Positions 3 to 19,562 of a DNA stretch of 64,000 nt are shown piece after piece (positions within the stretch are counted from its first letter, which is position 1; every line of letters begins with the position of its first letter). The stretch lies in contig NZ_BLZO01000094.1 of the NCBI RefSeq assembly GCF_014132355.1, positions 124,001 through 188,000 on the forward strand, read 5' to 3'. The notes beneath the pieces were generated by a model. It was given only the letters and a program-made list of their open reading frames with translations, ran no database searches and was not told the DNA's origin. The position numbers and the translations under genes are program-made. The DNA comes from Okeania sp. KiyG1 (GTDB taxonomy: Bacteria; Cyanobacteriota; Cyanobacteriia; Cyanobacteriales; Microcoleaceae).

Positions 3-2408
3 GAAACTGTCGAGAACCAGGAGATAAGGCTGGCAGCAGAAGCAACTCTGGCAACTCTGGAGGATGAAAAAGAGATCGCCCAAGAGCAACTAAACGATAC
101 CCTGGAAAAACTGAACGATGCCCAAGAGGACCAAGAACGGTTGCAGCAAGAGTTAGCGATCGCTCAAGTCCGGGTAGATGAAACGGAACGGTTACGGGCA
201 CAAACGGAGCAGACCATCGTCCAGTTGGTAGCCTTGGAGCAGATGAATCTAGCCCAAGCCCAGTTAGAGCAGGAGATTGCTAAGGCTCGTCAGCAGGACA
301 TGGATAAAGCAGTGCGCGATCGGCTCCTCCGAGAGCAACGGGAATTGGAGCGGGAACGTCAGGCTACTATTGCTGAAATAGAGTTAATTAAGCAGTTGCA
401 AGCTGAAGATGGCCTGCGTCTGTCATTGAATCAAATGCGGGGTATTTTGGGCCAATCTGGTTTGGCAGCAACAGATGATGCAGACGAGTTGGAAAGCCAG
501 TTGGCGGGTTTGCAATCGCACTTGGGAAGTACGGAAGCGCAACTAGCAGGAGTGCTAGAAGGTTTTGAAAAGTTGGAAGCCGAACAACTTGACGACTTCC
601 CCGACGAGCTTAAGACTTTGTTGGACAATGCCAAGAGCGATATTAACGATGCTTTGCAAGGTAAGGAAGCGGCGACGGTTCAGACTAACTTGCTGCGAGC
701 AGTCGAGGGTCTGATAGGGCAGATGACGTACTACCAGATCCAAATGGCCATGATTACACAAGATGATGAGGAAGATCGCGATCTCCTGATCGATCTGATG
801 GAAAGTTCGGACGAGAATATGGAGCGTTTGCAACAAGCAGGTCTGAAAGCAGATATTTTGGAAGAAGAGAAGCAAATTCTTCTACCAGATTACCTAGCTT
901 CTCTAAATAAAGTGCTGTATGCCGAGCAAGCGTCAGATATTTCTAAATCTCTAGCGAAACAGTCGCGGGCAGCGATCCAGCAGATTATTCAGAAACGGAT
1001 CGAAAGGCGCGAAGCAGCTAAGAAGAGTTTTTGGCGAAAGGTGTTGGGTATATTTTCCCAGATAATCAGCATTCTTACTGCAATCGCAGGACTTGCAGCC
1101 ATCGTTTTTCCAGCGCTAGCTCCTGTGATGATCGGTTTGAGCGCTGTCGGGGCTGGTATTAATACCATCCAAGCTGCTGTCAATGGCGATTGGATAGGGG
1201 CAATAGTCAATGGTGTCATGGGAGTTGCTAACTTAGTTACAGCAGGATTGAGCAAGGCTCTCAATGCGGTGAAAAATGCTTGTGCGAGCGCCTGCCAAAC
1301 TGTTTGGGGCATGAGTCAGGCAAAAGCCCAAAAACTTCTCACTATTCTCAACACATCGAAGGAAGTCCTACCCGGCACTGTTGATGGTATCCGTAATATT
1401 GCGGATGATAAGGAGATTCTGGGTATCGTTCAAATTTTAGGCAGTCTGGCAACAGCAATTACTGAGCCGAGTGCGTTAGGAAATTTAACTAAAACTACTT
1501 TATACAACCAATTTGGCAAAGGCTCGTTTATGGCCGACCTGATTTTTAATGGGTTCAAAACCTTAAAAAAAGCTCCCGAAGCCATTTATAAGAGCATCGA
1601 ATACATTGATAAAGGCGACCTATTTAACGGTATTACAACAATACTAGGCACTGCTTTCTCTTTGGGTGAAGACCTAACAAAAGGTGTGGCTGACAATATA
1701 TTTTCTAACTTGTTTGATGTCTTGGGCGCGGTAAATAGCACTGCAGTTACAGTTAACAACCGATTTATCGAGCAAGGCGGTGTCACTGGTTTGCTAGCAG
1801 GGATAGGAGAAATTGCCAGCGCTTGGAACGATCCGATTGATACTTTTGTTAATTATTTGGGCACCCAAGTTAATCTACCTGAAACGGTTGGTAAGTATGT
1901 GTCAAAAACGGTAGATGCTCTCTCGGTAGCACCGCAAAAGATAAGTGCTGGAATTGAAGCCATACAAAACGGAGATTGGGTAGATGGTATTGGCAATATA
2001 CTTAAAGCAACTCTCAAATCGGCTAAAATTTATGCTAAAGGCACTAAAGTCGAACCATTTGCTAATGCTTTTGAAAACGCTGGTTATACCGCTATCGCCA
2101 TCAGCGAAATTATAGAGGGTGCTGTCAATGGTTGGCGCGAATTGCCTAACAGTGCTAAGGATGCTTGGAAAACTCTTAAAGAAGGTTGGAAAGATGATGT
2201 GGAACGTTACACAATTGAGGAACGCTTTAAATCAATTTTCAAAGAACTGGGCATCCAAATCAAAGATTCTCATAGCCTAAAAGAGATGTTTGAAACTGCC
2301 AGAAATTGGGTTACAACTGAATTCTCTGGAGAAGTTAAAGAATCTCTACTAGACCTTCTTAGCACCTTAAATCCTTTCTCTAACCGACCAGTGCCCGTAA
2401 ACCCTTAG
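3..2408 (+). CDS. Giant coiled-coil protein, C-terminal part (5' end outside window)
   Basis: The reading frame is open from the left edge to a TAG at 2406-2408, so this is the 3' part of a longer gene. The first ~330 codons are Glu/Gln/Leu-rich coiled coil. Positions ~1030-1320 encode a hydrophobic, Ala/Gly-rich segment containing NGDWIGAI and TVWGMSQAKA. Both parts align closely with the 3' region of the complete giant gene at 4855-16359 (NGDWAGAI, TVWGMTQAAA), so the two are tandem paralogues. Beyond ~1480 the tails diverge: this one carries further GDW-type motifs (IDKGDLFNGI, IQNGDWVDGI) and a charged C-terminus, with no lipase motif. Function is unknown. Divergent tips on a shared stalk resemble polymorphic toxin or adhesin families, which is inference. 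Confidence 0.85.
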   Translation, partial: ETVENQEIRLAAEATLATLEDEKEIAQEQLNDTLEKLNDAQEDQERLQQELAIAQVRVDETERLRAQTEQTIVQLVALEQMNLAQAQLEQEIAKARQQDMDKAVRDRLLREQRELERERQATIAEIELIKQLQAEDGLRLSLNQMRGILGQSGLAATDDADELESQLAGLQSHLGSTEAQLAGVLEGFEKLEAEQLDDFPDELKTLLDNAKSDINDALQGKEAATVQTNLLRAVEGLIGQMTYYQIQMAMITQDDEEDRDLLIDLMESSDENMERLQQAGLKADILEEEKQILLPDYLASLNKVLYAEQASDISKSLAKQSRAAIQQIIQKRIERREAAKKSFWRKVLGIFSQIISILTAIAGLAAIVFPALAPVMIGLSAVGAGINTIQAAVNGDWIGAIVNGVMGVANLVTAGLSKALNAVKNACASACQTVWGMSQAKAQKLLTILNTSKEVLPGTVDGIRNIADDKEILGIVQILGSLATAITEPSALGNLTKTTLYNQFGKGSFMADLIFNGFKTLKKAPEAIYKSIEYIDKGDLFNGITTILGTAFSLGEDLTKGVADNIFSNLFDVLGAVNSTAVTVNNRFIEQGGVTGLLAGIGEIASAWNDPIDTFVNYLGTQVNLPETVGKYVSKTVDALSVAPQKISAGIEAIQNGDWVDGIGNILKATLKSAKIYAKGTKVEPFANAFENAGYTAIAISEIIEGAVNGWRELPNSAKDAWKTLKEGWKDDVERYTIEERFKSIFKELGIQIKDSHSLKEMFETARNWVTTEFSGEVKESLLDLLSTLNPFSNRPVPVNP

Positions 2409-2461
2409 ACAGACAAGAATGAGCCGTTAACTTTTGTCTCAACTACCACTAGAACCCAGGC

Positions 2462-2497
2462 GATCGCTCTTGTTTTCAGGGAGCGATCACTTTTTTT
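2462..2497 (+). terminator. Rho-independent terminator after the first giant gene
   Basis: An 8-bp perfect stem (GATCGCTC at 2462-2469, GAGCGATC at 2481-2488) is followed by AC and seven T residues. It lies 54 bases after the stop codon. The stem is built from a HIP1-like GCGATCGC core, so part of the palindrome may be HIP1 rather than selected terminator. Confidence 0.55.
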
Positions 2498-2612
2498 CCT
2501 CTTGTCCGTCAACGCTCTTTTTATCTCAGAAAAAAAGCGATCATTTTTTATGATAACTGATAACTGAAAGGAGCGATCGCTATTATAACCAACTCTATTA
2601 CCGATGCTACTC

Positions 2613-3074
2613 TCAATCAGTTAAAACTGAATCTGGTCCAGCAATAACAATCCCATCAGGAGCAAAAACTTTCCAGTCATCTACATCGTAAGTGTAAACC
2701 TGAAAAACACCAGCTACTAAAGCTGTAGCAGCGTGCCTAGCATCGTGAATCCGACGAGCTGTTAAACCTCGGTTAGCAGCAATTTCCAACATTTTGATAC
2801 TCACCTCAAAATTAGTATCTAAAACGGCAATTTTTGAAGGGTTTTCCACCAATGCATGAACGCAAAGCTTCGCTAATTCTGGTGTTTGAGGAGGTTTAGC
2901 ACCTACCCAGGTTAAAGCCGCATAAACTTCACTCAAAACCCCAACAGAGGTACAAGCATTCAACTCCCCCCCGTCTGGCCGCTTCCACGATAGCTCTGGC
3001 TTCAGTATGCCGATAATCACCACTACATAAAGCACCAATAAAAATTCCTGCATCTAAAAAAAAACAATTGTCAT
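2613..3074 (-). pseudogene. PIN-domain (VapC-like) toxin, broken by two homopolymer frameshifts
   Basis: A PIN ribonuclease of about 150 residues can be read only by joining three frames. From the ATG at 3074-3072 the frame reads MTIV and meets a stop inside a run of nine T (minus strand). One extra T would give FFLDAGIFIGALCSGDYRHT, with the first PIN aspartate. A second shift lies in a run of seven G near 2966-2972; with six G the frame joins GELNACTSVGVLSEVY and continues to DVDDWKVFAPDG, typical of the PIN C-terminal half. Both defects sit in homopolymers, so they may be true decay or sequencing errors. The antitoxin-like gene lies 8 bases upstream. Confidence 0.75.
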
Positions 3075-3082
3075 TGTTAACC

Positions 3083-3292
3083 CTAGTAAATTGCTTTCTT
3101 CCAACCCGAAGGTACGTTCGCCTCTAAAATAGGTAAAGGCTTTAATTCTTCTTGCCGAACTTCTACTACTAATATTTCTCTGTCGGATAACTGCACTGAG
3201 AGTGTCGTCCTCTCTTTTAGTAATTTGAGAAAATCCTCAACAGAAAAAGATTGAATATTTTCGATGGTCAAGACTTGATTAGTATCACTCAT
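3083..3292 (-). CDS. Small antitoxin-like protein paired with the PIN gene
   Basis: A 69-residue acidic protein ending in NVPSGWKKAIY, a tail I associate with short cyanobacterial antitoxins. It starts at ATG 3292 and ends 8 bases before the PIN toxin start, the usual antitoxin-first order and spacing of VapBC-type operons. No clear ribbon-helix-helix or AbrB signature is visible, so the antitoxin role rests on size, charge and position. Such proteins normally bind the toxin through their C-terminus and repress the shared promoter. If the PIN gene is really frameshifted, this antitoxin is an orphan. Confidence 0.65.
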   Translation of the reverse strand: MSDTNQVLTIENIQSFSVEDFLKLLKERTTLSVQLSDREILVVEVRQEELKPLPILEANVPSGWKKAIY

Positions 3293-3355
3293 TGTCCAGG
3301 TTCTTAAATTCTATTTGATTTTAGTATAGCAGTTGTTGGGGCGATCAAGACAGAT

Positions 3356-3475
3356 TTAATTGGGTTCCCAAGAATCAATTTCTGTAGGAAAATCAAGTTC
3401 AATACTGTTGTCATAACGGGGATTTTCTGCCAGCGCATCAATTATTTTCTTAATCCTTTGACGCACAACACCAGG
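3356..3475 (-). pseudogene. RelE/ParE-like toxin remnant
   Basis: On the minus strand a 39-codon open stretch reads VVRQRIKKIIDALAENPRYD then NSIELDFPTEIDSWEPN and a stop. This resembles the helical N-terminal half of cyanobacterial RelE/ParE-family toxins, which run VRQRIKxxIDxLAxxPRP with an LDxP stretch after it. There is no start codon; upstream it is cut directly by an ATAACTGATAACTG repeat at 3476-3497. It is a fragment without a partner. Confidence 0.4.
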
Positions 3476-4165
3476 TCATTTCAGTTATCAGTTATCAGTA
3501 CCGACCACTAAAGCTGGAGGCTACGAAAATACTGAACTGAAATTTTTTCATCCCCTTAAAAGGGGAGGCTTTGGATCTCATTTTTTGGTAAATTATATCA
3601 AATCCGTTTTATTGAACATAAAAAAATTCTCCAATCGTCATAACTACGCTCATCTTTGTAATTCTCTCTCCTCCTGACTCCTGACTCCTGACTTCCCTTC
3701 CTGGGAGGGGTTAGGGGTGGGTTGACTCCTCCTGGCTTAACCATTCTATGGCTGTTTAACCGGATTTGATATTACGCCTGCGATCGTGGACTGATGCTAA
3801 TAACCAAACTCTATACATATCTCTAGCCCAATTTGAATCTTTAATCCCATTCATCCTTAACTGCATCCCAATCTAAACCAAGTTATGTATAGCGATCGCT
3901 TTTTTCCTCTTGTCTACAGCTAGGTGCGGTGCTAATCTCATGTTTCATTAAATAACTGTAACAGGACTTGCGCAAACTCTTAGACAATATGCTACCTGTA
4001 GAGGGCAATAGATCCCAAATGGGGTTCTATAGTTGGGAGTGGGGGAGATTGAAGTAGTTATAGAATTATCAACATATACTATATAACCGGATTCTATATA
4101 ATTTGTGGGAAAAATTAAATTTTTTTCTAAAATAGACAATTTTTTCCTTACCTATGTTATTTTCC
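3476..4165. other. Intergenic stretch with repeats, no gene seen
   Basis: This holds the 17-mer CTGATAACTGAAATGAC (minus strand, around 3476-3492), CCTGACT heptads at ~3665-3692, and a block at ~3700-3775 (TGGGAGGGGTTAGGGGTGGG, then CTGTTTAACCGGATTTGATA) that recurs at 59332-59450. A lone CAGGACTTGCGCA end of the common MITE family lies at ~3961. Open frames here have no coding character. Confidence 0.6.
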
Positions 4166-4414
4166 TATAGAACCCCTGAGTGGATCTTTGGACGCGGTAT
4201 GTGCTTTTGGCTTCCGTCCTCAGTCTGAGCGATCCAGTGGAAATTCAGGAACGAGAATAGGGGAGGCTAGCGGATGGGACCCCGCGTCGCCCAATAGCAC
4301 ACCTGGTAGCTTCCCTTGCAGGTAGAAAAATACTCTCATCTCCCCATCTCCCCATCCCCCCATCCCCCCATCTCCTCCTCTATTTTTAAATAGATACCAC
4401 TCAGGGGTTCTATA
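4166..4414. mobile_element. MITE-like element with 18-bp perfect inverted ends
   Basis: TATAGAACCCCTGAGTGG at 4166-4183 is exactly the reverse complement of 4397-4414. The 249-bp interior carries a C-rich tract (the complement of GGGGAGAT/GGGGGAT repeats) at ~4335-4380 and no protein. Related GGGGTTCTATA sequence also lies at ~4019-4030. No transposase of this family is in the window, so any movement would be in trans. Confidence 0.55.
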
Positions 4415-4425
4415 ATAGGTGATTT

Positions 4426-4679
4426 TAATTAGGGCTTGCTGAATAAAGCTAAAAATCAGGATATATAAGGTAATGAAGCTTTTTATATTCAATTGATCTC
4501 CTAGTTTATGGCTCTTATTTGCCTCAAAATACTGACATTTTCTGCTGAAATTCAAGAAAATTTATTCACATAAAATGGCCGAAACAGTTGTCTGTTCTCC
4601 ACAAATCGACCCGTCCCCGCGTATCGACCCGTCCCCGTGTCCTACTCCACCAACCAATTTATTCAGCAAACCCTAATTA
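4426..4679. mobile_element. MITE-like element with 22-bp inverted ends
   Basis: TAATTAGGGCTTGCTGAATA at 4426 onward (22 bp in all) matches the reverse complement of 4658-4679 at 21 of 22 positions. The 254-bp interior contains a short direct repeat (TCGACCCGTCCCCG twice, ~4606-4637) and no open frame of note. GCTTGCTGAATAAA-type ends occur on some insertion sequences, so this is probably an IS-derived non-autonomous copy. Confidence 0.5.
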
Positions 4680-4854
4680 TTAGTTTGCCTCCTGGTTAGG
4701 AGCTTTTCTTTGGAATGCTTTGCCAACTCTAACAGTTCTATAATGAGGATTAATTTCTCAAATAATCAAAAAACTAGATTAAGAACTGGATAGACTAAGA
4801 AAAATGCAATATAATTTTTTTGATTTAAAACACTAATAATTAGAGGTGCAAATT

Positions 4855-7800
4855 ATGATTTGGTTCTGGAAGAAAAAGAATAAACAAAAACCACAAAAAA
4901 AATCTGCCAAAAAGCCAAGAAGTAAGACTTTTATTTTAGAAGAAATTATTAGTCCTGGTGCTTATTGTCCCATACCAATAGATGACTCCCTCGTTAACCA
5001 TCCCATTTTTGGATTATTCACAGACCAAGAATTAATTACTACTATTTTAGGAATTGACGCTCCTCCAAATATTGCAGATATAGACACAGAAATTTTAGTC
5101 CAAGATTATTGGGAAAAGCTCAACGAATACTTTCAAGAAAACCCGACAGAAGCGGATGCTTTTGATATAAATAATTTGTCTACTTGGCCGACATTGGAGG
5201 CGCTGATAAATCCAGGGCAACCTAGTGTAGAAATACCTGATGTGGGTGGAGCTGTGGGTACTTTACCCCCTCCAGTGACGGTGCCAGTAGACCCCCCTAG
5301 AAATAATCCGGGTAGTGGCGGTCAAGACCCAGTTATCCCTCCTCCTGAACCACCTACCCTAGTTAATGCTATTTCAGATATTACTCTGACACCAGAAATA
5401 TCCTCTCAAACCATAGATATATCCCAGGTATTCGCTACTCCAGATGGGGAACAACTAAAATATGAAGTCATAAATAACAACAACGAACTTCTTAATCTCA
5501 ACTTAGAAAATAATCAACTATTAATAGAAGCACTACCCAAAACAGGGTCAAGTCAAATTACAATTCAGTCCACTACTAACGCTGGAGGTGTGGCAGCTCA
5601 TACTTTTAAGGTTTTCAATAATTATGTTCCACCAGAGTCTGTGGCAACTATTAATACTGGTTTAACCGAGTTACAAAATGTTATTGATACTAACCCGGAT
5701 GACTTATTAGCTAGTTTGGATAACCCAGAAGCACAAACAGCTTTGGAAACTCTAGCGACTGAATTAGAATCCAATTTTGATAATATTTTCAACGCTATCC
5801 AACAACCAGAAACTCTGGCAAAAGCAGGAGTATCTCCCGAAGCAGTTACTACTTTGGAAAAACTATTGGCCAATAGAAAAGTGGGTGCAGCTTTAGGTTT
5901 ACCAACTTCTGTGGAGTCAGCTTTGACTTCGGATGATTTTCGGATTTGGGATAACTATTTAATTAACGCTACGGAAGCTGCTTCTATTCTTTTACCCGAC
6001 GCACCTCAAACGAATGTGGCATTTTTGGATTTTGCTGATGAACATGGGGAAAATGTGACAGAAGTATTTGAGTCTGTTAACCCTAATGCTGAGTATGAAC
6101 GTTTATCTATTAATAATGGAAATTGGGCACAACAGTTGGTGCAGTATGTGGATAACTTGAAAGCTGCTGGAAAAGACCGGGGTATTGTCAACCTCAGTTT
6201 TGATTTGACTCAGGTGGATGACCAGGGAAGGACAACAACTCGCTATGATTTGACCGAAGCAGAACAATTGGCAATTCAATATGCACGGGATAATAATGTA
6301 TTGTTAGTAGCTGCTTCCGGTAATACTGGTGGAGAAATGTCAGCTTTAGGAAAAGCAGCAGAAAAGTTTGACAATATTATTACTGTAGGAGCGGTGAATA
6401 AGTTGGAGGAAGTTGCTGACTATTCGAGTCGAGGCGACACTTTGACTTTGGTTGCTCCTGGAGGACAGTATGAAAATGACCCGAATGCTTTTGTGGGTAC
6501 TTCCCGGGCGACGTCTTATGTGACTGGTGCTGCGTCTCTAGTTTGGGCAGCTAACCCAGAGTTGAGTTATCAGCAAGTGAAGGAGTTGTTGACTCTGACT
6601 GCTAAAGATTTGGGCCCGGAAGGTTGGGATGCAGAGACGGGTGCTGGTTTGTTGGATGTGACTGAAGCGGTTTTGATGGCAGGTTTAGTGGCACCGGAGG
6701 CGGTGGTTAGGTTTGGGGATGTGGATATTTCGCAGTTTAGTGGTGCGGGTAGGGTAAGTGTTGATGTTCGTGCTGCGTCGCCGGAAACTGAAGCTGCTAT
6801 TCAGGGTTTGACGGATACTCAGAATCAGTTGTTGGGACAATGGCAGGTTTTGAGGAATTTGGGTAATGATGATGTGACTTTGGAGGAGTTACAGAATGAG
6901 ATTGCTTCTCGGAAGTCGGATGCGTTGGATAGTTATCGGGATGTTGATACTGCTGCTGCGATAAGTTTGGTGAAAAATCAAGAGTCGTTGACTGCTTTGG
7001 GTTTGGCAAGGGAGCATTATCAAATTGAGTTGGCGCGGTTGCAGGGTTTGTTGGAGCGTCAGGGACAATTGCAGGATGGGTTAGTAGCTTTGACTGGGGA
7101 ACGGGATGAGTTGGTTGTTACTAATGCGGAACAGTTAAGAGTTTTGGAGGAGGCGATCGCTCGGACGGAACAAGAATTGGATGATGCGAGGAAGAAGTTG
7201 CAATATCAGCTTGTGGACCCGGATACTTTGGTTGCTCAGACTGATGCTGTGAAGGCTGAAATTACTGATTTGGAGGCCAAGATTCAAGAGTATCGTCAGC
7301 AGTCTGCTGTTTTGAAGGCACAAGCAGATAATTATTATGCCCAAGCTAACCAGTATCGGCAACAGCAACAACATCATACTAATATTGCTAATAACGCTTG
7401 GATAACGCGCCGAGGTAAAAGTGGACGACGGTATACGGAGCGTAATACTCCTGTATATAACCATCATATAAATATAGCTAACCAAGCGGCGCGTAATGCT
7501 GAGTCAGCTACTTCCCAAGGCGATGTTTTCCAAGCTAATCACAACCAATTGCAACAGTTGACTGCTCAAATGGAGCAACAAACTCAGGAGTTGAGAGATT
7601 ATGAGGAGCTGCTGGAAGGAAATAATCAGCAATTATCCACACTCACAGGCAACCCCGATGATGCGCAGCAAATTTTAGAAGCACTCCAAAAACAAGCGGC
7701 AGAAAAGACCCAACAGGCAGAAGAATATTGGCAGCAAGCTGAATTTGCCGAAAAACGACGGGTGGAAAATCAGGAGAAAGCTAACTGGCATAATTCTATG

Positions 7801-10800
7801 ATTAACCGTCGTGAAGTTGTTGGTCATCGTAAAAAGCGTAAGAAGCGTGAACCAATCTACGGTTGGCGTCACTATCCAGAACACATTGCTCCTCGCGACC
7901 AAGCACAACAACAAGCTAACAATGCTGAAGTTGAACGCCAAATCTTTGAACAGTGGGCACGACAAGCGCAAGCTGAGGCGGATGCTTTGAACGCAGAAGC
8001 TACGTCGTTAGGGGAACGAGTGGAAGATTGGCCAGAACTGAAGCGGGGTATCGAGTATGAAATAAATGCCAAACAACAACAGTTACAAGCTGAGAATGAT
8101 TTACTGGCATTGCAAACTCCGGTGCAAAGGCAACAGTTAGAAACTCTGGAGTTGCAAATTGCTCAAAGCGAGGCGGAGTTGCAAAAACTGGAAACCGAGC
8201 AGTTACCGGAACAGCAGCAAAAAACTGATGCTACTGAGGAACGGTTAAGTCAGGTACAGCAGGATGTAGAGGAAAATCAAGTTCAGCGCAGTCAAACTCA
8301 AACAGATTTGCAAAATTTCCTAGAAACTTATGGTTATTTACTGCCATATCAGGAACGTCGGGCAGCAGTGCAAAAACAGATTCAACAGTTAACGGAAGAA
8401 ATAACTATTGTCCAACAGTTATTATTGCAACAGCAAACTGAGGTAGCTAATAACCCCAATAATAATCTAACCAGTCAATTAGAATCTACCCAAAATTATC
8501 TAGAGCAGATAGAGCAACAGTTGGCTTATGCAAAAGTGCAGGAGGAACAACTGAATCTTGCTGCTCCTGACTCTCCGCAACGTTTGGCTATTGGTAATTT
8601 GATTGATGAGTTGGCAAAACGACAAAGTAGGGGCGAACGGCCGTTCGCCCCTACATTACCCTTACAGCAATACATTGACTTTTTGCGTGGGGTAGAAAAT
8701 CGCAATAACAATTTGTTGAATGGGTTTGACGACTTGGAAGAGCGTTTGACGGCTGCTCAAACTCAACAAACTGCTGGAGATGAGACTTTGCGACGACTTC
8801 AGAACGAATATCGTGATTTAGGTTTGGCAAAAGCGGATATTGAAAATGAGAAATTAATGCCAAATCTGATTACAGCGTTGCAAACGGAAATTGACTCGCA
8901 ACAGGAAATTTTAAATGGTTATCAGCAGCAAATTAGTGATGCTCATGCTGTGGCGAGTAATTTTGAGCAACAGCGACAACAGCATCAAAATAGCGCTAAC
9001 CATTGGGATTCTCAAGTTAACACTTGGGGAGTTGTCGGTCATCGCCGGGAAAATAAAAAGACCGTCCCTGTTTACGGTTGGATACATAACCCACAGGCAG
9101 AAGCTAACCGCAATGCTGCTCAAGCTGCTGCTAACAATGCTGCCCAACAAAGGGATGTTGCCACTCAACAAGCACAACAGCTTGAGGCAAGTTTGCAACC
9201 AAGTATCAATACAACTCAAGCAACCATTGCTAACCTTGAGAACAAGCAGCAAATTTTCACAGATATCGAAAATATTCAACCTAACGCGACTTTGGAGGAG
9301 GCGATCGCTCTTAAAGATACTCAAATTGATAACACAAAAACAGCAATTAGTCAAACGAAAGATACGATTAATTCCCTCAAAAACGATTTACCTATCACCA
9401 AGCAAGCTAAGTTCGATAAAGAGGTAGAAATCGTAGGGCAAGAGGGAGCGATCGCGCCAATCCAAACCCAACTCAAAGCTACTGAAAGCAAGATAAATGT
9501 AAAACAAGCAGAAATTACTCAGAAACAATCATTATTGCAGGAGTATCATAACCAAATAAACCAAGCGAATGCCGTTACTAATAATTTCGAGCAACAGCGA
9601 CAGCAGCATCAAGCGAATGCGAATTATTGGAATGGTGTTGCAAATCGATCTGGTGGTGGCTTCTTAGCCGCTATTGCCAAGATAACTGCTCGTATCAGAC
9701 GCGACGAGGCACTTGCTGCTGCTGAGTCCGCAGCCCAACAACGTGACTTAGCTGCCCAACAAGCACAACAACTCACTGCTACTTTGCAACCGCAAATTCA
9801 GGCAATTCAACAAGATATTGCGCCACTGCAAACTGAAAAGCAAAACTTAGAAACAGAAAAACAAAACCTGCAAACTCAGTTAAGCAACCAACAACAAAAT
9901 TTACAAAATCTCCAATCTGAACTAGCAGGAATTGAGCAAAATATCAGCAACATTGAGTCCGATATTGTCACCAATGAGCAAAAGGTACAACAGCTAGACG
10001 CCCAACTGCTGAAAGAAAACTCAGATAAAATACATCTCCAGGAGGCTTTAGCAGAAATAGACCAACGTATTGCGGATAAAGAGTTAGAAATATCAGACAA
10101 ATATGAGGAAATTCAACTGACGGAAAAATACGCCCGCCATGTTAACGCCGAAGTCGATCGCCTAGAAAACCGCCTCGACTTAATTAACCGAGCAGATGCT
10201 CTCGAAACTGAATATCAAAACCAACAAGATAACTGGCAAAATGCCTTAGATAACCAAATAGCATCTACCGAAGAATTGTTGGCAACTCGCACAGCAGGAG
10301 AAAACGAACGGGAACAATTACTATCGTTGCAATCTCAGCTAGCAGATACTCAAACTCAACTTGCCACCGCTCAACAGCAACAAGCGCAACTCACAACTGA
10401 GGTAGAAACTGCCCAAGAAGATTTACAGTTTACTCAACTGCAACTAGGGAACCAGCAATTGCAGTTACAAAGCTTACAAGCTCAAGACGAACCATTGCGC
10501 AGCGCTGAAGCTTATTACTACAACCAAGCTCAACAACATCGGCAGCAGATTTGGTATTCCAACGGTAGCCAGTTTGTGTATAATGCCGAACAAGCAGCAG
10601 CATATCGCGCCAACATGGAGCAGGCAGCGCGGATGGCACAGCAGCGCAATGATAATTGGCCGAAAATAGAAGAAACTCAGAAGAAAATTGAGGAGTTGAA
10701 CCAGGCGATCGCTACTCAAACAGCAAATATCGCTAGTAAGCAACAGGAGTTGGCAGAAGTCACTCCAGAGGTGGCTAACTTAACTGCCAAGGCAGCAGAA

Positions 10801-13800
10801 ATCGAAATTCAAATCCCCCCTCTAGTTACTGCTCTAGAACCTCTGCAACAGGCAGAAAATGCCAAATTAGCAGACTTCCAAAATGCTGTTGAGCAAACAG
10901 AAACCGCATCCGTAGAATTAGCTCAAACCACCAAAGAGCAGGCAACCGCTTTGAATCATTTGATTAGCTTTGGCGTTTTGGGAACGGAATCTGATGTCGA
11001 TTTCTTCCCGACTCAGGTGGAGTCAAAAGTTAATGAATTTATTCAACAGTTGCAAAACCGCAGTAATGACTTAGGTTCCCAAGCTGATACTCTAGGAAAT
11101 TTGATAGCAGACTGGCAACAGGAATTAGACAATACCACAGATACAGTCAGTCGTCAAGCGTTAACCGATTTGATTACCGAAACTATTGGCCAACAGAATC
11201 ATCTATTGCAACGTCAACAGGAAAATCAGGAAATAGTAACGGCATTGAGCGATCGCTTAACGGCAGCTAAAGCTTCTCTAGAAAATCTCCGACAACAGCA
11301 GGAGTTGGAAATTCGGTCACAACTCAATAATAATGATGAGCGGTTAGAGGCGCTTAACCGTCAGTTGCAAACAGAGACTGCAGCAGAAAAGGCGCTGAAT
11401 GAGAATACAGTATTAGCTTATGCTCAACTCAATGACCAAGTGCGGGCAGATTTGACGGCGAGTGCGACTCAGTGGGTGAGTCAATTGCAAGAAGGGCATC
11501 AGCAAACTAAGGAAATTGGGGAAAGTCAGCAAAATCTGTCTCAGTCCGTTGATAACTTGATTGAGTATATAGAGGATAATTTAGCTGATGTTGATGGGGA
11601 ACGCGACCGGAATTTGGCAGATTTGCGAGATGCCATTACTACCTTGGGTGTCGTTGCGCCCCGTCGCGATGAGTTTGCAGTAGGGGAAACTCACCTGAAG
11701 CAAGAGATTGAGAAGCTGAAACAGTTAATTGAACAGGATGCCAAGTTGTGGCAGGAAATTGCTCCCATCGCCCAACGTTTTGGGGTTGAGTCTCAAGAGT
11801 TGGCCGAGTATCAGCAGCAGTATGAGGCTAAAAAACTGCAGGACGAAACAACAGCGCAACAGTACGAGGAACAGCGACAGCAACATGAGAATAATGCCAA
11901 TCATTGGAAATCTCAGATTAATACCTGGGGAGTGGTAGGACATCGGCGAAGGAACAGAAAGACTGTACCAGTCTATGGGTGGATTCATAATCCTACTGCT
12001 GAGGCCAACTATAATAATGAACTAGCAGCAGCGGAAACAGCAGCTCAAAACCGTGATGCAGCTTTGGAATTACCTACAGCTCTAGCATACCGGGAGGAAT
12101 TTGTCAATAACGCTACCAACAATGGTACAGCTATCGATGTATTGCAAGCTGAAACCGAAGAAAAAAGTAATGAATACAGTTCCCTACTAGCACAAGTGAA
12201 GGCAGAAGAAGCACAAAACAACGCTCAAGCTTCTGCTGCTATAGTTCAAGCTGACTGGTACGAACAACAAGCTGCCGAACACTGGGAACGCAGTCGTAAA
12301 AATGGTCCGACTTGGACTGAAACTCGCGTAACTTGGAAACGGGGTAGGTCTGGTAAGAAGAAAAGGCATGAGGTAACTATCACCCATGTTGACCACGACT
12401 GGATACTCTGGGATACCTACAGCAAATTAGCTCCACAACTGCGACAACAAGCAGCCGAACAGTTGGTAGTCAGCGACGAAAAATCCCAAGAACAGGAACG
12501 CTTGCAACCGCTAGCAGAACAGTGGGCAGATACGCGTAATGCTACTAACATCGCTGAAGCACCGATTAATGCTAGTCGCAACCTGGTGGAAGTATTGGAA
12601 ACTTCCCGCGAACAAATTCCTGCTGCCCGCGAACAGTTGCAACTGTTGGAAGAGCTATTGCCAGAGGTAGAGGAAAAATTTGCAGAAGCTCAGAAAGAAG
12701 CTGACGAATACAATGCCAGAGTATTAGCTGAGTGGCAAGAACATGACGAAAACGCGACAGAATATATCAATACCATTGAGGACATATTAGAACGTCGTGG
12801 CGACCTCAATAAACAATCCCAGGAATTGCAAAACAAACTTGCCGATACGGAAAAATGGGTGGAACAACAAACCGTCGCGTTGGATACTGAAACGGAGCAA
12901 GTCGATAATTTGCGTCAACAGTTGATAGCTGATGGGGAGGCGTTGGCAGAAAAAATTGCTGTGGCAACGGGTAGCGAATTAACAGAGTTGCAGACCAAAC
13001 AAGCACAACTCCAGGAAGCTTTGGGACTCATTGAAAATAAAGCAGTGGTATTGCGACAGCAGCAAACAGCATTCAGCCAAAAACGCACTTTGCTGACCGC
13101 AGAAAACGAAGTTATTCTCGCAGGACAACGCTTATTAGATGCTTACCTGATAACTCCTGAGAGCGACTTTGAGGAATTGCAACAACAGCTAGCAGATGCT
13201 CGTGCTGCTTTAGCGGAAGCCCAACGTTTGGCAGAACAAGCAGAAGCCAGCAGTCAAGCATTAACCGCTCCGTTACAGGAACTCCAAGAAGACCTCCTGG
13301 CACAAAACGACGAACATTTGCAAGCTGCTAAGGAACGTCAGCAGATACTCAAGGATTTGTTGGAGGCAACGGAACTGAATGCTAACTACACTTTAGAAGC
13401 TGCCCAGAAACAGCAGGAAGTGAACGATTTAGAATTCCAAATCTTGCAACGGTTGCAGTCAGCCACTATTGCGGGTAACGAAGAGGCCAAACATTTATTA
13501 GATGTGGCGACTCAAAACGATATGGCAACGGCGGCAGAAATCTATTATCGCAGTTTCAATGATGTTGCTGGTGATAAGCGCAGTAGTTCTGCTGGTGGTG
13601 TGGGACGACCGGAAGACCGAATATTAGCGGATAAGTATTATCAGGAGATGCAAAACCATCGCCAGTTGCAGCGGTTAGCTCAAGAGCAAGCAGACCATTT
13701 TGGAGAGATTCGCCAAACTGCTGAAGCGCAATTGGAGGAATTGCAACAGCAACAGGAGGATGCTGCCCAGACGTTGCAGGAGATTAACGACCAGATTAAT

Positions 13801-16359
13801 GAGACCCAGGAGCAACAGGAAGCCAAGGAGCAGGAGTTGGCAGTTGCTCAGGCTCGTTTAGATGGAATTGCTCGGATACGGGAGCAAACAGAACAAACTT
13901 TTGTGCAGTTGGTTAGTTTGGAACGCTTGAATCTGGCTCAAGCACAGTTGGAGCAGGAAATTGCAGAGCGACGGCAGTCGGAAATTGATGAGGAAGTGGC
14001 ACGGCGTTTGGAACGGGAGGAGATTGAGTTGGAGCGTCAGCGTTTGGAAGCGCGGGCGAAGTTGGAGCAGTTGGAGCAGTTGCAGGCTGAGGAGGACTTG
14101 CGACAAGCGGTGAATCAGGCGCGGGCTGATGTTGGTTTGGATGCTGTGGCTGGTGGTAGTAATTCTGCTCAGTTGTCGTCGGATATGGCAGCGTTGTTGG
14201 GGCAGTTGCAGAATTTGGAGCAGCAACAGCCTGATTTGCCTGATGATGTGAAGGTTTTGTTGGCTGATGCGAGGGGTGATATTTATCTGGCGTTGCAAGG
14301 GGAAGAGGCTGAGAATATTCAGGAGAATTTGCTGAAGACTACTGTAGGGTTAGTGGGGCAGATTCAGAATTATCAGACTGAAATTGCTAAATTGGACTCA
14401 GAGGAGCTTTGGGATCATCAATTGTTGGCCCAAGCAGAAAATGATTTGCAAGCTGCGTCTCGCGAAATGGTAGAGGAGCTGCAGCGATCGCAAGCTTTAT
14501 CTGGGGAACGGGAGATTATTAATCCTCTGTACATTGAGACCTTGAGTAAAGTTGCCTATGCAGAGCAGGCTGTGGACATTTCCCAAGATTTAGCCAAGCA
14601 GTCGAAAGATTTCCTCGGTCAAATCCTCGAACAACGAAAAGAAGAACGGAAAGCCCGTAAAAAAGCATTCTGGAATGAGTTGTTAAGCGTAGTTTCAACA
14701 GTTCTGAATATCCTCGCTTTTATTCCAGCTCTGGCTCCTTTCGCAATTGCTCTGAGAGCTGCTAGTGGAGCTATTAGTGCAATTCAAGCTGCAATCAATG
14801 GTGACTGGGCTGGTGCTATTTTCGGTGCTGTTATGGCTGGAGTAGGTGCTGTTGCTGGTAGTCTTGGTAATGCTATAAACGCAGTCAAGGGCACGACAGC
14901 AACTGTCTGGGGAATGACTCAAGCTGCTGCTGGTAGCCTCCTTTCCAATATACAAACCATTCAAGGTGTAGCAAGTGGCTTATTTCGTGGCATACGAGCC
15001 GCTGAATCTGGTGATAACATCATGGCTTTCCTACAAGTCTTGGGCGCAGCAGCAACGACAGCTATATCAGGAGGACTAGGGGGACTGAGTGAAACAGATT
15101 TCGCATACCAGTTGATTAATACCCTTCAAGATGTTCCGGTGATGATATACAGTAGTATGCTAGCTATTCAAAGCGAGGATTGGATTGCTGCGATTAGTAA
15201 TATTTTCAATGCTGCGATAACTACAGCCCGAAACTTTACCAATTTGGTAGCTTCCTCAGACACATTCAAGAGTATTTCTCAGGAACTTAGCAAGTGGGAG
15301 TTATTTGGGAATGTTGGTTTAGCCCTAGCTGGCGCTATAGAAGAAGATAGTCTGCTTGGCTGGCTATCTGGCATTGAGGGAGTTCTAAGTTCTGTGCAAA
15401 CGTATGGCAATGAGAGAGCTAGTTTTAGCAGGAAGGTAAGAGCCAGAGTGGAAGCTGAGAGGTTAGCAGCTAATTCCCACGATCCAGAAATAATAAGACT
15501 GGCAGAAAGAAAAGGTTTGTCCCTAGAACAAGTTTGGAGAAGTTCAAATGGACAAATTTACTATGATGTTCCTTTTGAAATTAGAGACGGTTTGATGGGT
15601 CGATTAGTCGTAGTAGGAGGGGATTTTGATCCATCTAAACCAACTCGCGTTGTTATTCATGGGTACAGAGGTTCTTTCAATGAGGAAGATACAGAAAATT
15701 GGATGACCCAAATGACCAATGGTTCTCCAGACAGAGATGAAAATATCGTGCTAGTTGATTGGGGAGAAGCAGCAGGAAACTTATGGTATCCAACACCAGC
15801 AGCAGATACTGAAATTGTTGGTAATACAGTTGCTCAAGAACTTGAACGATGGGGTGTTTTACCAGAAAACTTGACTCTTGTTGGTCATAGTCTTGGAGCT
15901 CAAGTTTCTGCCAACATAGGTGAATATTTTACGGATGATCAAGGATCACCTCTTGTTAAACGCATAATTGGCTTAGATCCAGCCCAACCTCTTTTTGAAC
16001 ATGATGGTATTATTCCCGTATTGGGTTGGTGGAATGGTCCTACCCCAGATCCTTCGGATAGGCTTGATGCTGGAGATGCCCAGGAGGTTATTACAATTCA
16101 CAGTGACAGTGAATGGGATGGCTTAATTCCTCCTCTAGGGTATTCTGATCCTGGAGGACACAAGAGCTATTACTTAAGTGATGCAACTGTAGACAGTATT
16201 ATCGCAGATAATCCCAATTTAAGTGGACCAGTTGCAGACCACTCAGTAGCCCCTTACTTCTTTCTAGAAAATGAAGATCAAATTTTAGAACAAAGCCAAA
16301 ATGGCTCTTACAACATAGGATCTGATTCTAACAACAATCTAAAGATTGCAGAAAGATAA
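4855..16359 (+). CDS. Giant subtilase - coiled coil - lipase protein
   Basis: The protein has 3834 residues. ATG 4855 is preferred over GTG 4846 because AGAGGTG sits six bases before it. There is a basic N-terminus with no clear signal peptide, a Pro-rich linker, and a cadherin-like beta domain at ~170-260. A subtilase-like domain spans ~385-615, with D392, H397, oxyanion-type N490 and S550 in GTSRAT. Coiled coil runs from ~640 to ~3250, interrupted by aromatic/basic inserts (e.g. ~983, ~1384 and ~2351). A hydrophobic Ala/Gly segment covers ~3273-3380. The C-terminal pancreatic-lipase-like domain (~3590-3810) has S3679 in GHSLGAQ, D3708 in GLDPAQP and H3796. Both catalytic sets look complete, although the Asp-His spacing of the subtilase is very short. 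The shared C-terminal region makes it a paralogue of the upstream gene. Surface adhesin, toxin or self-processed enzyme carrier are all possible. The domain calls are firm and the function is not. Confidence 0.9.
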   Translation: MIWFWKKKNKQKPQKKSAKKPRSKTFILEEIISPGAYCPIPIDDSLVNHPIFGLFTDQELITTILGIDAPPNIADIDTEILVQDYWEKLNEYFQENPTEADAFDINNLSTWPTLEALINPGQPSVEIPDVGGAVGTLPPPVTVPVDPPRNNPGSGGQDPVIPPPEPPTLVNAISDITLTPEISSQTIDISQVFATPDGEQLKYEVINNNNELLNLNLENNQLLIEALPKTGSSQITIQSTTNAGGVAAHTFKVFNNYVPPESVATINTGLTELQNVIDTNPDDLLASLDNPEAQTALETLATELESNFDNIFNAIQQPETLAKAGVSPEAVTTLEKLLANRKVGAALGLPTSVESALTSDDFRIWDNYLINATEAASILLPDAPQTNVAFLDFADEHGENVTEVFESVNPNAEYERLSINNGNWAQQLVQYVDNLKAAGKDRGIVNLSFDLTQVDDQGRTTTRYDLTEAEQLAIQYARDNNVLLVAASGNTGGEMSALGKAAEKFDNIITVGAVNKLEEVADYSSRGDTLTLVAPGGQYENDPNAFVGTSRATSYVTGAASLVWAANPELSYQQVKELLTLTAKDLGPEGWDAETGAGLLDVTEAVLMAGLVAPEAVVRFGDVDISQFSGAGRVSVDVRAASPETEAAIQGLTDTQNQLLGQWQVLRNLGNDDVTLEELQNEIASRKSDALDSYRDVDTAAAISLVKNQESLTALGLAREHYQIELARLQGLLERQGQLQDGLVALTGERDELVVTNAEQLRVLEEAIARTEQELDDARKKLQYQLVDPDTLVAQTDAVKAEITDLEAKIQEYRQQSAVLKAQADNYYAQANQYRQQQQHHTNIANNAWITRRGKSGRRYTERNTPVYNHHINIANQAARNAESATSQGDVFQANHNQLQQLTAQMEQQTQELRDYEELLEGNNQQLSTLTGNPDDAQQILEALQKQAAEKTQQAEEYWQQAEFAEKRRVENQEKANWHNSMINRREVVGHRKKRKKREPIYGWRHYPEHIAPRDQAQQQANNAEVERQIFEQWARQAQAEADALNAEATSLGERVEDWPELKRGIEYEINAKQQQLQAENDLLALQTPVQRQQLETLELQIAQSEAELQKLETEQLPEQQQKTDATEERLSQVQQDVEENQVQRSQTQTDLQNFLETYGYLLPYQERRAAVQKQIQQLTEEITIVQQLLLQQQTEVANNPNNNLTSQLESTQNYLEQIEQQLAYAKVQEEQLNLAAPDSPQRLAIGNLIDELAKRQSRGERPFAPTLPLQQYIDFLRGVENRNNNLLNGFDDLEERLTAAQTQQTAGDETLRRLQNEYRDLGLAKADIENEKLMPNLITALQTEIDSQQEILNGYQQQISDAHAVASNFEQQRQQHQNSANHWDSQVNTWGVVGHRRENKKTVPVYGWIHNPQAEANRNAAQAAANNAAQQRDVATQQAQQLEASLQPSINTTQATIANLENKQQIFTDIENIQPNATLEEAIALKDTQIDNTKTAISQTKDTINSLKNDLPITKQAKFDKEVEIVGQEGAIAPIQTQLKATESKINVKQAEITQKQSLLQEYHNQINQANAVTNNFEQQRQQHQANANYWNGVANRSGGGFLAAIAKITARIRRDEALAAAESAAQQRDLAAQQAQQLTATLQPQIQAIQQDIAPLQTEKQNLETEKQNLQTQLSNQQQNLQNLQSELAGIEQNISNIESDIVTNEQKVQQLDAQLLKENSDKIHLQEALAEIDQRIADKELEISDKYEEIQLTEKYARHVNAEVDRLENRLDLINRADALETEYQNQQDNWQNALDNQIASTEELLATRTAGENEREQLLSLQSQLADTQTQLATAQQQQAQLTTEVETAQEDLQFTQLQLGNQQLQLQSLQAQDEPLRSAEAYYYNQAQQHRQQIWYSNGSQFVYNAEQAAAYRANMEQAARMAQQRNDNWPKIEETQKKIEELNQAIATQTANIASKQQELAEVTPEVANLTAKAAEIEIQIPPLVTALEPLQQAENAKLADFQNAVEQTETASVELAQTTKEQATALNHLISFGVLGTESDVDFFPTQVESKVNEFIQQLQNRSNDLGSQADTLGNLIADWQQELDNTTDTVSRQALTDLITETIGQQNHLLQRQQENQEIVTALSDRLTAAKASLENLRQQQELEIRSQLNNNDERLEALNRQLQTETAAEKALNENTVLAYAQLNDQVRADLTASATQWVSQLQEGHQQTKEIGESQQNLSQSVDNLIEYIEDNLADVDGERDRNLADLRDAITTLGVVAPRRDEFAVGETHLKQEIEKLKQLIEQDAKLWQEIAPIAQRFGVESQELAEYQQQYEAKKLQDETTAQQYEEQRQQHENNANHWKSQINTWGVVGHRRRNRKTVPVYGWIHNPTAEANYNNELAAAETAAQNRDAALELPTALAYREEFVNNATNNGTAIDVLQAETEEKSNEYSSLLAQVKAEEAQNNAQASAAIVQADWYEQQAAEHWERSRKNGPTWTETRVTWKRGRSGKKKRHEVTITHVDHDWILWDTYSKLAPQLRQQAAEQLVVSDEKSQEQERLQPLAEQWADTRNATNIAEAPINASRNLVEVLETSREQIPAAREQLQLLEELLPEVEEKFAEAQKEADEYNARVLAEWQEHDENATEYINTIEDILERRGDLNKQSQELQNKLADTEKWVEQQTVALDTETEQVDNLRQQLIADGEALAEKIAVATGSELTELQTKQAQLQEALGLIENKAVVLRQQQTAFSQKRTLLTAENEVILAGQRLLDAYLITPESDFEELQQQLADARAALAEAQRLAEQAEASSQALTAPLQELQEDLLAQNDEHLQAAKERQQILKDLLEATELNANYTLEAAQKQQEVNDLEFQILQRLQSATIAGNEEAKHLLDVATQNDMATAAEIYYRSFNDVAGDKRSSSAGGVGRPEDRILADKYYQEMQNHRQLQRLAQEQADHFGEIRQTAEAQLEELQQQQEDAAQTLQEINDQINETQEQQEAKEQELAVAQARLDGIARIREQTEQTFVQLVSLERLNLAQAQLEQEIAERRQSEIDEEVARRLEREEIELERQRLEARAKLEQLEQLQAEEDLRQAVNQARADVGLDAVAGGSNSAQLSSDMAALLGQLQNLEQQQPDLPDDVKVLLADARGDIYLALQGEEAENIQENLLKTTVGLVGQIQNYQTEIAKLDSEELWDHQLLAQAENDLQAASREMVEELQRSQALSGEREIINPLYIETLSKVAYAEQAVDISQDLAKQSKDFLGQILEQRKEERKARKKAFWNELLSVVSTVLNILAFIPALAPFAIALRAASGAISAIQAAINGDWAGAIFGAVMAGVGAVAGSLGNAINAVKGTTATVWGMTQAAAGSLLSNIQTIQGVASGLFRGIRAAESGDNIMAFLQVLGAAATTAISGGLGGLSETDFAYQLINTLQDVPVMIYSSMLAIQSEDWIAAISNIFNAAITTARNFTNLVASSDTFKSISQELSKWELFGNVGLALAGAIEEDSLLGWLSGIEGVLSSVQTYGNERASFSRKVRARVEAERLAANSHDPEIIRLAERKGLSLEQVWRSSNGQIYYDVPFEIRDGLMGRLVVVGGDFDPSKPTRVVIHGYRGSFNEEDTENWMTQMTNGSPDRDENIVLVDWGEAAGNLWYPTPAADTEIVGNTVAQELERWGVLPENLTLVGHSLGAQVSANIGEYFTDDQGSPLVKRIIGLDPAQPLFEHDGIIPVLGWWNGPTPDPSDRLDAGDAQEVITIHSDSEWDGLIPPLGYSDPGGHKSYYLSDATVDSIIADNPNLSGPVADHSVAPYFFLENEDQILEQSQNGSYNIGSDSNNNLKIAER
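8627..8654. repeat. 28-bp perfect REP palindrome inside the giant gene
   Basis: GTAGGGGCGAACGG joined to its exact reverse complement, read in frame as SRGERPFAPT between coiled-coil segments. The same palindrome occurs at 16387-16414 and 18779-18806. Confidence 0.9.
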
Positions 16360-16414: not shown

Positions 16415-16447
16415 GGGTATGAATTATCCCCTCAAAATATACAAACA

Positions 16448-18074
16448 GCGATCGCTCCTTTCCCCAAAATCAACCAACCACAAAAAAACATGACAAACAC
16501 AACAATCATTGCCCAAACCTACACCCACAGACCAGCCACCCAGGAGGTAACAGCGAACGCCAGAAATGTGTAGGGGCGAATGGCATTCGCCCGCACAGAT
16601 ACCAAGAATTCCCTCAAAATCTGGAATAGGCGATCGCCCCTGACCCAAAATCAACCAACCAAAAAAACCATGACAAACACAACAACCATCGCCCAAACCT
16701 ACACCCAAAGACAAGCAACCCAGGAGGTAACAGCGAACGCCAGAAATGTGTAGGGGCGAATGGCATTCGCCCGCACAGATACCAAGAATTCCCTCAAAAT
16801 CTGGAATAGGCGATCGCCCCTGACCCAAAATCAACCAACCAAAAAAACCATGACAAACACAACAACCATCGCCCAAACCTACACCCAAAGACAAGCAACC
16901 CAGGAGGTAACAGCGAACGCCTGAAATGTGTAGGGGCGAATGGCATTCGCCCGCACAGATACCAATTATTCTCTCAAAATATGGAATAGGCCATCGCCCC
17001 TGACCCAAAATCAACCAACCACAAAAAAACATGACAAACACAACAATCATTGCCCCTACCTACACCCAAAGACAAGCAACCCAGGAGGTAACAGCGAACC
17101 CCTGAAATGTGTAGGGGCGAATGGCATTCGCCCGCACAGATACCAATTATTCTCTCAAAATATGGAATAGGCCATCGCCCCTGACCCAAAATCAACCAAC
17201 TACAACAAAACATGACAAACACAACAATCATCGCCCCTACCTACACCCAAAGACAAGCAACCCAGGAGGTAACAGCGAACCCCTGAAATGTGTAGGGGCG
17301 AATGGCATTCGCCCGCACAGATACCAATTATTCTCTCAAAATATGGAATAGGCCATCGCCCCTGACCCAAAATCAACCAACCACAAAAAAACATGACAAA
17401 CACAACAATCATTGCCCCTACCTACACCCAAAGACAAGCCACCCAGGAGGTAACAGCGAACGCCTGAAATGTGTAGGGGCGAATGGCATTCGCCCGCACA
17501 GATACCAATTATTCTCTCAAAATATGGAATAGGCCATCGCCCCTGACCCAAAATCAACCAACCACAAAAAACATGACAAACACAACAATCATTGCCCCTA
17601 CCTACACCCAAAGACAAGCAACCCAGGAGGTAACAGCGAACCCCTGAAATGTGTAGGGGCGAATGGCATTCGCCCGCACAGATACCAATTATTCTCTCAA
17701 AATATGGAATAGACGATCGCCCCTGACCCAAAATCAACCAACCACAAAAAAACATGACAAACACAACAATCATTGCCCCTACCTACACCCAAAGACAAGC
17801 CACCCAGGAGGTAACAGCGAACCCCTGAAATGTGTAGGGGCGAATGGCATTCGCCCGCACAGATACCAATTATTCTCTCAAAATATGGAATAGACGATCG
17901 CCCCTGACCCAAAATCAACCAACCACAAAAAAACATGACAAACACAACAATCATTGCCCCTACCTACACCCAAAGACAAGCCACCCAGGAGGTAACAGCG
18001 AACCCCTGAAATGTGTAGGGGCGAATGGCATTCGCCCGCACAGATACCAATTATTCCCTCAAAATATGGAATAG
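16448..18074. repeat. Tandem array, nine ~181-bp units (GNAT start region plus REP)
   Basis: The landmark CAGGAGGTAA recurs at 16541, 16721, 16901, 17082, 17263, 17444, 17624, 17805 and 17986, so units are 180-181 bp and nearly identical. Each unit has, in order: a HIP1-like GCGATCGCCCC or a variant, an AAAATCAACCAACC leader, ATGACAAACACAAC with about 20 codons (MTNTTxIAxTYTQR), a stop at or before the REP, then a REP palindrome with core GGCGAATGGCATTCGCC. The leader and first codons match the 5' end of the acetyltransferase gene at 20090 (MTNTTTTQTYTQRLAT). The units could encode 24-27-residue peptides, but neutral amplification is more likely. Confidence 0.95.
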
Positions 18075-19298: not shown

Positions 19299-19562
19299 AT
19301 GAAACCTGTCCAAATATCAATCGAAATCCCCGAATCAGTGTTGGCAGCAACCAACGCAGATGCCACAACATTTGCCAGAGAATTACGGACATTAGCAGCA
19401 GTAAAACTCTATGAAATGGCACGTTTATCCTCTGGCAAAGCAGCCGAACTAGCAGGAATGTCACGAGTAGAATTCCTACTCAACTTAGACAAATATCAAA
19501 TCTTTCCCTTTGCTCAAGAATTACAAGAATTGGAAGCAGAACGTGCCAGCAGCAATCAGTAA
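19299..19562 (+). CDS. UPF0175-family antitoxin
   Basis: An 87-residue protein with the UPF0175 pattern: a short beta start (VQISIEIPE), a helical middle (FARELRTLAAVKLYEMARLS) and the signature SGKAAELAGMSRVEFLLNLD. It overlaps the DUF3368 gene by 20 bases, a strong sign of translational coupling. UPF0175 proteins are predicted DNA-binding antitoxins that repress their operon. I see no frame defect. The start is the only ATG with a sensible length. Confidence 0.85.
   Translation: MKPVQISIEIPESVLAATNADATTFARELRTLAAVKLYEMARLSSGKAAELAGMSRVEFLLNLDKYQIFPFAQELQELEAERASSNQ

Follow-up and report, generated by a model that had tools for sequence, protein, structure and literature searches.

This study concerns a 64,000-nucleotide stretch of Okeania sp. 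KiyG1, hereafter the window (contig C94:124001-188000 of a 10.98 Mb genome), and two giant genes in tandem at its start, gene A and gene B. Loci compared with it carry L-numbers; L009 and L007 are the loci of gene A and of a third copy, gene C, in the same genome. The two reading frames described in the original prediction are present. The first belongs to a gene of 4,182 aa with its start upstream of the window (L009:3860-16408, equal to contig C94:113860-126408), and the window covers its 3' end only. The features of both genes in the window are as follows.

3-2408, forward strand: 3' end of gene A (801 codons), an open frame covering the end of the stalk, the helical hinge and a helical tail in which no enzyme is recognised.
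153-1412, forward strand: hinge of gene A (coiled-coil end with the NGDWIGAI and TVWGM segment), homologous to gene B.
1416-2405, forward strand: tail of gene A (GDW-type repeats and a charged end), common to gene C and to L029, L030, L121 and L107.
4846-16359, forward strand: gene B (3,837 aa), an open frame with a possible ATG start at 4855.
4927-4956, forward strand: N-terminal motif TFxLExIxxP of gene B behind a basic leader, invariant in nine of nine aligned leaders.
5341-6945, forward strand: head of gene B, with a beta-rich segment (Ig-like by eye), a helical segment and a subtilisin-like domain (Peptidase_S8).
6946-13836, forward strand: coiled-coil stalk of gene B, about 2,300 aa, 64-97% identical per 150-aa segment to Okeania L011 and L012 where their sequence reaches.
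13837-15165, forward strand: hinge of gene B, the segment used for family searches, placed by alignments and given an all-helical low-confidence model.
15487-16356, forward strand: tip of gene B, a pancreatic-type lipase domain.

The listed start of gene B is a GTG, but gene C begins at the position of the ATG three codons further on (4855), which may therefore be the true start of gene B. On contig C97, gene C is split by a frame break into two open pieces (1,166 and 2,281 aa); it spans L007:1573-12083, and the break near L007:5073 is either real or an assembly error. All three genes encode a subtilisin-like head, a coiled-coil stalk and a helical hinge, and they part at their ends, which are a pancreatic-type lipase in gene B and a helical tail without a recognised enzyme in genes A and C.

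Gene A aligns with gene B at 39% identity over 569 aa (E = 4e-90, single comparison), and the alignment passes through the non-coiled NGDWxGAI / TVWGM segment, so that the coiled-coil end and hydrophobic segment said to be common to both genes are indeed shared. Reading upstream for the N-terminus of gene A, as had been proposed, recovered the same head as in gene B, with 72-86% identity over the first 600 aa, whereas segments of the stalk are mostly 10-44% identical and reach 52% at best. This difference suggests that heads and stalks have recombined as well.

The head of gene B matches Pfam Peptidase_S8 at 9.6e-21. All 14 aligned rows keep the active-site residues Asp230, His235, Asn328 and Ser388 (aligned-head numbering), that is, the triad and the oxyanion Asn. 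In sequence, His follows Asp at a distance of only five residues, which is unusually short, and the head is therefore likely a shortened but possibly active predicted protease. Its AlphaFold2 model (pLDDT 75) matched subtilisins in Foldseek with E 1e-10 and TM(target) 0.65. Among nine head fragments from eight relatives, seven gave S8, DUF4114 or both in Pfam; the other two gave FG-GAP repeats (L032) and no match (L034). The hinge, of about 450 aa, terminates the coil and has hydrophobic helices and NGDW motifs. AlphaFold2 modelled it as all helix with low confidence (pLDDT 52), and a 22-row hinge profile matched no PDB chain at E <= 0.01.

A profile built from the three hinges of this genome led to 28 named loci, all cyanobacterial, including some in Okeania, Microcoleus, Planktothrix, Oscillatoria, Tychonema, Roseofilum, Symploca, Nostoc and Microcystis. 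By taxonomic rank, a 26-row hinge profile matched 14 of 62 genomes of the family, at least 43 of 389 of the order and, with a threshold of E <= 1e-10, at least 7 of 388 across the class, the last two counts being lower bounds since at most four first-look candidates were scored per genome. The closest named relatives are Okeania assemblies, in which L010, L011 and L012 match the hinge at 66-68%. L011 and L012 look like the same locus as the window, judged from gene content, because a GNAT family gene and a PNPOx-like gene are common to all three downstream.

Given that the stalk weakly matches SMC and Rad50 models, the apparent relation might be low-complexity coiled coil, with the tips unrelated gene ends, a concern raised in the original prediction itself. 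This explanation was rejected and its probability is negligible: the hinge profile is specific (at least 7 of 388 class genomes, no PDB chain), and the relation takes in the subtilisin-like head and aligns through the non-coiled segment of the hinge.

Behind the hinge, identity between close relatives collapses. Gene B and L012 are 84-97% identical per 150-aa segment over residues ~1,800-3,300 and then 32% and lower, and gene B and L011 are 64-94% identical up to residue ~3,300, followed by 42% and 15-24%. In 50-aa segments, L013 and L014 fall from 90-100% to 46% and 0-32%, and L019, L089 and L090 among themselves from 78-100% to 54-64% and 14-26%. A common pre-toxin stretch of ~240 aa is found in L013, L017 and L028, yet these differ behind it, and the ends are therefore mosaics. 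Related strains thus carry the same backbone with different C-terminal domains, as is characteristic of polymorphic toxins, and the proposed pattern of a shared stalk with swapped tips, read as that of polymorphic toxins or adhesins, is supported by close stalk relatives that differ in tip.

In a tree of 54 hinges, sisters such as window/L012, L013/L014, L019/L090 and L017/L023 bear different tips. Tip changes on this tree number 27 (24 labels in the 42 of 54 rows that were labelled; least possible 23), with a separate label for each unrecognised tip and another for L091, which at that point, with its Rhs gene still unseen, was not grouped with the other short ends. The tree was a quick one, omitted two of 56 rows (L037 and L114) with weak or incomplete hinge matches and gave L113 a very long branch. 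The count of changes in itself says little, and the paired drops in identity are the stronger evidence from sequence.

The ends of 38 relatives including gene B (L100 in part) and that of gene A were scanned with Pfam at curated family cut-offs. Fifteen of the 39 reach the cut-off of an enzyme or toxin family, and seven families are represented, the opposite of one tip being always kept with the stalk. Lipase is found in nine members (gene B, L019, L094, L099, L101, L103, L104, L105 and L111), and the others are RNAse_A_bac, the CdiA-CT RNase A family (L017, 5e-31), Cytotoxic, of the colicin E3 type (L114, 3e-29), Ntox24 (L122, 8e-14), YwqJ-deaminase (L113, 9e-7), M23 (L090, 9e-13) and Pesticin (L095, 7e-39). 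Matches below cut-off were to DUF3238 (L010), AMOP (L012), Reprolysin (L112, 3e-4), Pesticin (L032) and Lipase (L110). With NCBIfam, ten tips gave nothing above cut-off; L011 (L020 was left out of that scan) had a weak match, far below cut-off, to a type VI secretion system effector family. Guesses made by eye, namely M15-like (L023), nuclease-like (L028), transferase-like (L015), alpha/beta hydrolase (L014, L020) and pore-like (L011, L089), had no Pfam support and were not counted.

The lipase domain predicted at the end of gene B is PF00151 at 8e-22, above cut-off, and matches PDB 1lpa at 1.9e-11. Of the catalytic residues, Ser (GHSLGA) and Asp (LDPA) have counterparts in the alignment with pancreatic lipase, which does not extend to the His. 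A separate gene frame of 259 aa at C142:37824-38333 in the same genome has 44% identity to this tip over ~170 aa. The tail of gene A resembles the ends of gene C, L029, L030, L121 and L107 with E 1.5e-11 to 2e-51, end against end; as a candidate for a known enzyme it was dismissed, with no Pfam or NCBIfam family at E <= 0.01 in the window part of gene A. One clade (branch L032-L036, L095-L111) bears RTX repeats in 9 of 16 scanned ends (L100 scanned in part), three of them behind lipase. No RTX repeats were found in gene B (no HemolysinCabind) or in other ends scanned outside this clade.

Immunity-position genes were sought as frames of at least 60 aa within 1.2 kb behind the giants. In L017, the RNase A giant shares its final 4 bp with a 106-aa CdiI_2 immunity gene (1.2e-21), and in L114 a 79-aa DUF7683 gene (4e-23) starts 8 bp behind the colicin-E3-type tip. 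Two other frames are possible immunity genes: one of 147 aa without a Pfam match, 14 bp behind the lipase tip of L094 (L094:8319-8759), and a similar one (by eye) 225 bp behind the metallopeptidase-like tip of L112.

The tips could also be surface enzymes or adhesins, the stalk displaying hydrolases for scavenging, sheath remodelling or attachment, and the variety of tips would then reflect diet rather than conflict. Lipase as the commonest recognised tip fits this reading, as do distant members that join lipase with cadherin-like, dockerin, Calx-beta or RTX modules, and gene B being without an immunity-like neighbour. The RNase A-like, colicin-E3-like, Ntox24 and YwqJ-deaminase families, however, are known from toxins with intracellular action and would make poor feeding enzymes, and an immunity gene of the CdiI_2 family overlaps one such toxin tip. 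We consider this explanation improbable for the family as a whole; a pure adhesin is a possible reading for members with an unrecognised tip.

In L016, L018, L022, L024 and L091, the giant stops soon after the hinge, and in all five loci an Rhs/YD-shell gene comes next (in L016, L022 and L024 this first Rhs gene was recognised by its similarity to the one in L018). Four of these loci (L016, L018, L022 and L024) also have a second Rhs gene, short and partial, in which the end of the shell recurs with another tip, so that it represents an orphan cassette. For directly fused tips no orphan cassettes were seen, the genome of this strain holding only the separate lipase frame on C142. The Rhs end of L018 and the fused tip of L090 have a common domain (37% over 135 aa, E 7e-19, single comparison), so tip domains occur on both kinds of carrier.

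The giants are cysteine-poor for their size (0-10 in the frames counted). At the border of hinge and tip, two or more close cysteines are found in 12 of 56 rows (L010, L011, L013, L015, L017, L019, L020, L023, L028, L089, L090 and L122); A-type tails have cysteine pairs at other places, and the rows of the RTX-bearing clade and gene B have none at this border. Each of the five short-ended giants has one cysteine among its last five residues. As a guess, these cysteines might allow release on reduction or link the giant to its Rhs partner by a disulfide.

A giant followed by an Rhs gene recalls TcA with TcB/TcC, and the weapons could be aimed at eukaryotic grazers or hosts instead of bacteria and work as Tc toxins or RTX lipases do. 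The pancreatic-type lipase tips, the weak reprolysin-like tip (3e-4, below cut-off) and the RTX repeats of one clade are in keeping with this. Against it, the Pesticin (peptidoglycan), M23, colicin-E3-type and CdiA-type RNase tips, the last with CdiI_2, point to bacteria, and Pfam gave no TcA family in the window part of gene A, in gene B or in the head fragments. A eukaryotic target for the family is unlikely in our view.

Genes A and B very probably belong to a family of polymorphic effectors, found mostly in filamentous cyanobacteria, that have an exchangeable C-terminal cassette behind the hinge. At the level of sequence, this family keeps its backbone and swaps its tips, among which are known toxin families; it also includes one toxin-immunity pair by family assignment, a second tip with a small gene at the immunity position, and a split form of giant and Rhs gene. 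These features suggest polymorphic-toxin carriers, that is, a weapon-delivery protein. The backbone consists of the subtilisin-like head, a coiled-coil rod of about 2,000-3,000 residues and the helical, partly hydrophobic hinge, after which the cassette follows. We infer that the protein would be exported and would stand on the surface or be shed from it, the head cleaving itself or others after export. With help from the hinge, the tip may reach or pass through the target membrane, and it would kill or weaken neighbouring cells. Gene B would deliver a lipase attacking the membrane lipids of a bacterial or eukaryotic target. In the split form, the giant stops soon after the hinge, and the Rhs (YD-shell) gene that comes next bears a variable end of its own.

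Several observations weigh against this interpretation. No enzyme or toxin family was found above the Pfam cut-off in 24 of the 39 scanned ends, some of which gave only RTX or other repeats. An immunity-position gene accompanies two of the four nuclease- or deaminase-type tips, and we know of no description of DUF7683 as an immunity family. Within 1.2 kb, no comparable gene was found behind the Ntox24 tip of L122, and behind the YwqJ tip of L113 there are only an 89-aa frame at 215 bp (transposase-like by eye) and a 98-aa frame at 906 bp. Behind gene B, too, no immunity-like gene appeared within the same distance. The short or early ends of L012, L027 and L035 had no Rhs gene behind them in the sequence seen, which reaches only ~50 bp beyond L035. 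With regard to export, no hydrophobic signal peptide was seen by eye in the leader of gene B, and, without a systematic search for export or secretion genes, one HlyD-type gene turned up, at L020. The membrane-crossing role of the hinge is only a guess because its model is of low confidence, and for the lipase, M23 and lysozyme tips a role in feeding or in remodelling the wall is also conceivable.

Among known systems, the polymorphic toxins are the nearest in kind (Zhang et al. 2012, PMC3482391). They share with the giants a backbone that is kept while the C-terminal toxin is exchanged, toxins of known families, orphan ends, a protease in the architecture and, in some loci, an immunity gene placed at the end; subtilisin is listed in that paper among processing proteases. 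The difference lies in the backbone, which matches no leader or repeat type in the table passages compared, and the word "coiled" is absent from the first 300,000 characters of the text. Literature on giants, cyanobacterial toxins and GNAT acyltransferases gave no description of this family among the matches listed, with most subscription papers and all bioRxiv preprints outside its scope. The kind of system is known from PMC3482391, and the backbone was found neither in the passages compared nor among the literature matches listed.

L017 resembles CdiA/CdiI systems in that its tip is a CdiA-CT of the RNase A family and a CdiI_2 gene follows, but the giants have a coiled coil in place of beta-helix repeats, and no Pfam domain of two-partner secretion or hemagglutinin type was matched in gene B or in the nine head fragments of eight relatives. 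Five loci recall Tc and Rhs toxins in that the giant is accompanied by a YD-shell partner whose end varies; the other members with a recognised tip, by contrast, have it fused directly. Type I secreted RTX lipases are similar to the one clade with RTX repeats, some of which lie behind a lipase, and differ from gene B and the other scanned ends outside that clade, which are without such repeats.

The window also contains two genes of the GNAT family downstream of gene B.

20090-20728, forward strand: short GNAT copy (PF00583, 1.9e-6).
20848-21861, forward strand: partner GNAT gene (337 aa), a GNAT domain with a C-terminal extension (PF00583, 7.9e-5), of a family that co-occurs with the giants.

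Relatives of this gene are present in 15 of the 30 other loci compared. Across the order, it was found in 61 of 389 genomes, comprising 41 of 43 with a giant and 20 of 346 without (Fisher p about 1e-37, uncorrected for kinship); short-fragment places were kept in this count, and several of the 20 genomes without a giant enter by short fragments only. GNAT lies within 12 kb of the hinge in 30 of 53 giant loci, a count that used 53 of 56 hinge places and left out three fragments of listed genes as well as short GNAT fragments. The idea of GNAT as an exclusive partner of the giants is weakened by the 20 of 346 order genomes that have it without a hinge match. In L124, L127, L128 and L140, the GNAT family occurs beside large genes that by eye resemble two-partner adhesins, with no giant match. 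L125, L126 and L139 have giant-family heads and no hinge match in the stretch fetched, and L126 (G505) contains three large frames with giant-like N-termini (two by eye, one by tblastn) and GNAT between two of them.

The GNAT protein may modify large exported proteins. Toxin-activating acyltransferases of the HlyC type have a GNAT-like fold, and in both cases the gene accompanies a giant exoprotein or a candidate for one. The partner here, however, is PF00583 and not of the HlyC family, and it also stands beside other large secreted-looking genes (by eye). By analogy, the giants could be surface-rod toxin carriers with a protease head, the toxin being either fused or contained in a docked Rhs cocoon (possibly via the lone C-terminal cysteine), whose activity would require modification by the dedicated GNAT acyltransferase in a HlyC-like manner. 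This fuller scheme is tentative and rather doubtful.

Other neighbours of the giants were noted in passing. M50-type peptidase genes, with a possible link to export, are located at L009:1154-2215, in L012, at L020:16563-19586 and at L027:15220-16794; in L020, the M50-like gene is just below cut-off and is followed by the HlyD-type gene. A retropepsin-like aspartyl protease is found in six giant loci (L014:15437-15880, PF13975, with relatives in L013, L016, L020, L024 and L028), and XisI and XisH lie beside the giant at L013:14271-15007, with relatives of both in L010, L011 and L014. At L030:2343-12172 and L139:4133-9855, the open frame of the giant reaches only into the early stalk and is followed by a gene that by eye encodes a secreted protein of vWA type; in L030 the later part of the giant follows this gene.

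In the window, a repeated-DNA block with repetitive short frames on the minus strand lies directly behind gene B (16424-17954), and beyond it are a Y1 (IS200-like) transposase (18491-19087) and a DUF3368 gene (19510-20025). A subtilase-like gene (26176-27981; 601 aa, HGTHVAG and GTSMASP by eye) is located 10 kb behind gene B and has counterparts in L012 (by eye) and L011. Two open frames of equal length (621 aa) on the same strand, at 45873-47738 and 49672-51537, are a possible duplication.

Cyanobacteria build dense mats and blooms, and to our knowledge antagonism between them has been little studied. If the interpretation as a polymorphic effector family is true, a carrier of exchangeable toxins across many genera would make cyanobacterial kin discrimination and competition directly testable, and the combination of a protease head, a giant coiled coil and a helical hinge would be an added delivery architecture among polymorphic toxins. 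Modification of such proteins could be approached through the link to GNAT, which is a concrete lead open to testing. Since the border of the hinge marks where each unrecognised end begins, new toxin domains may be found among these ends.

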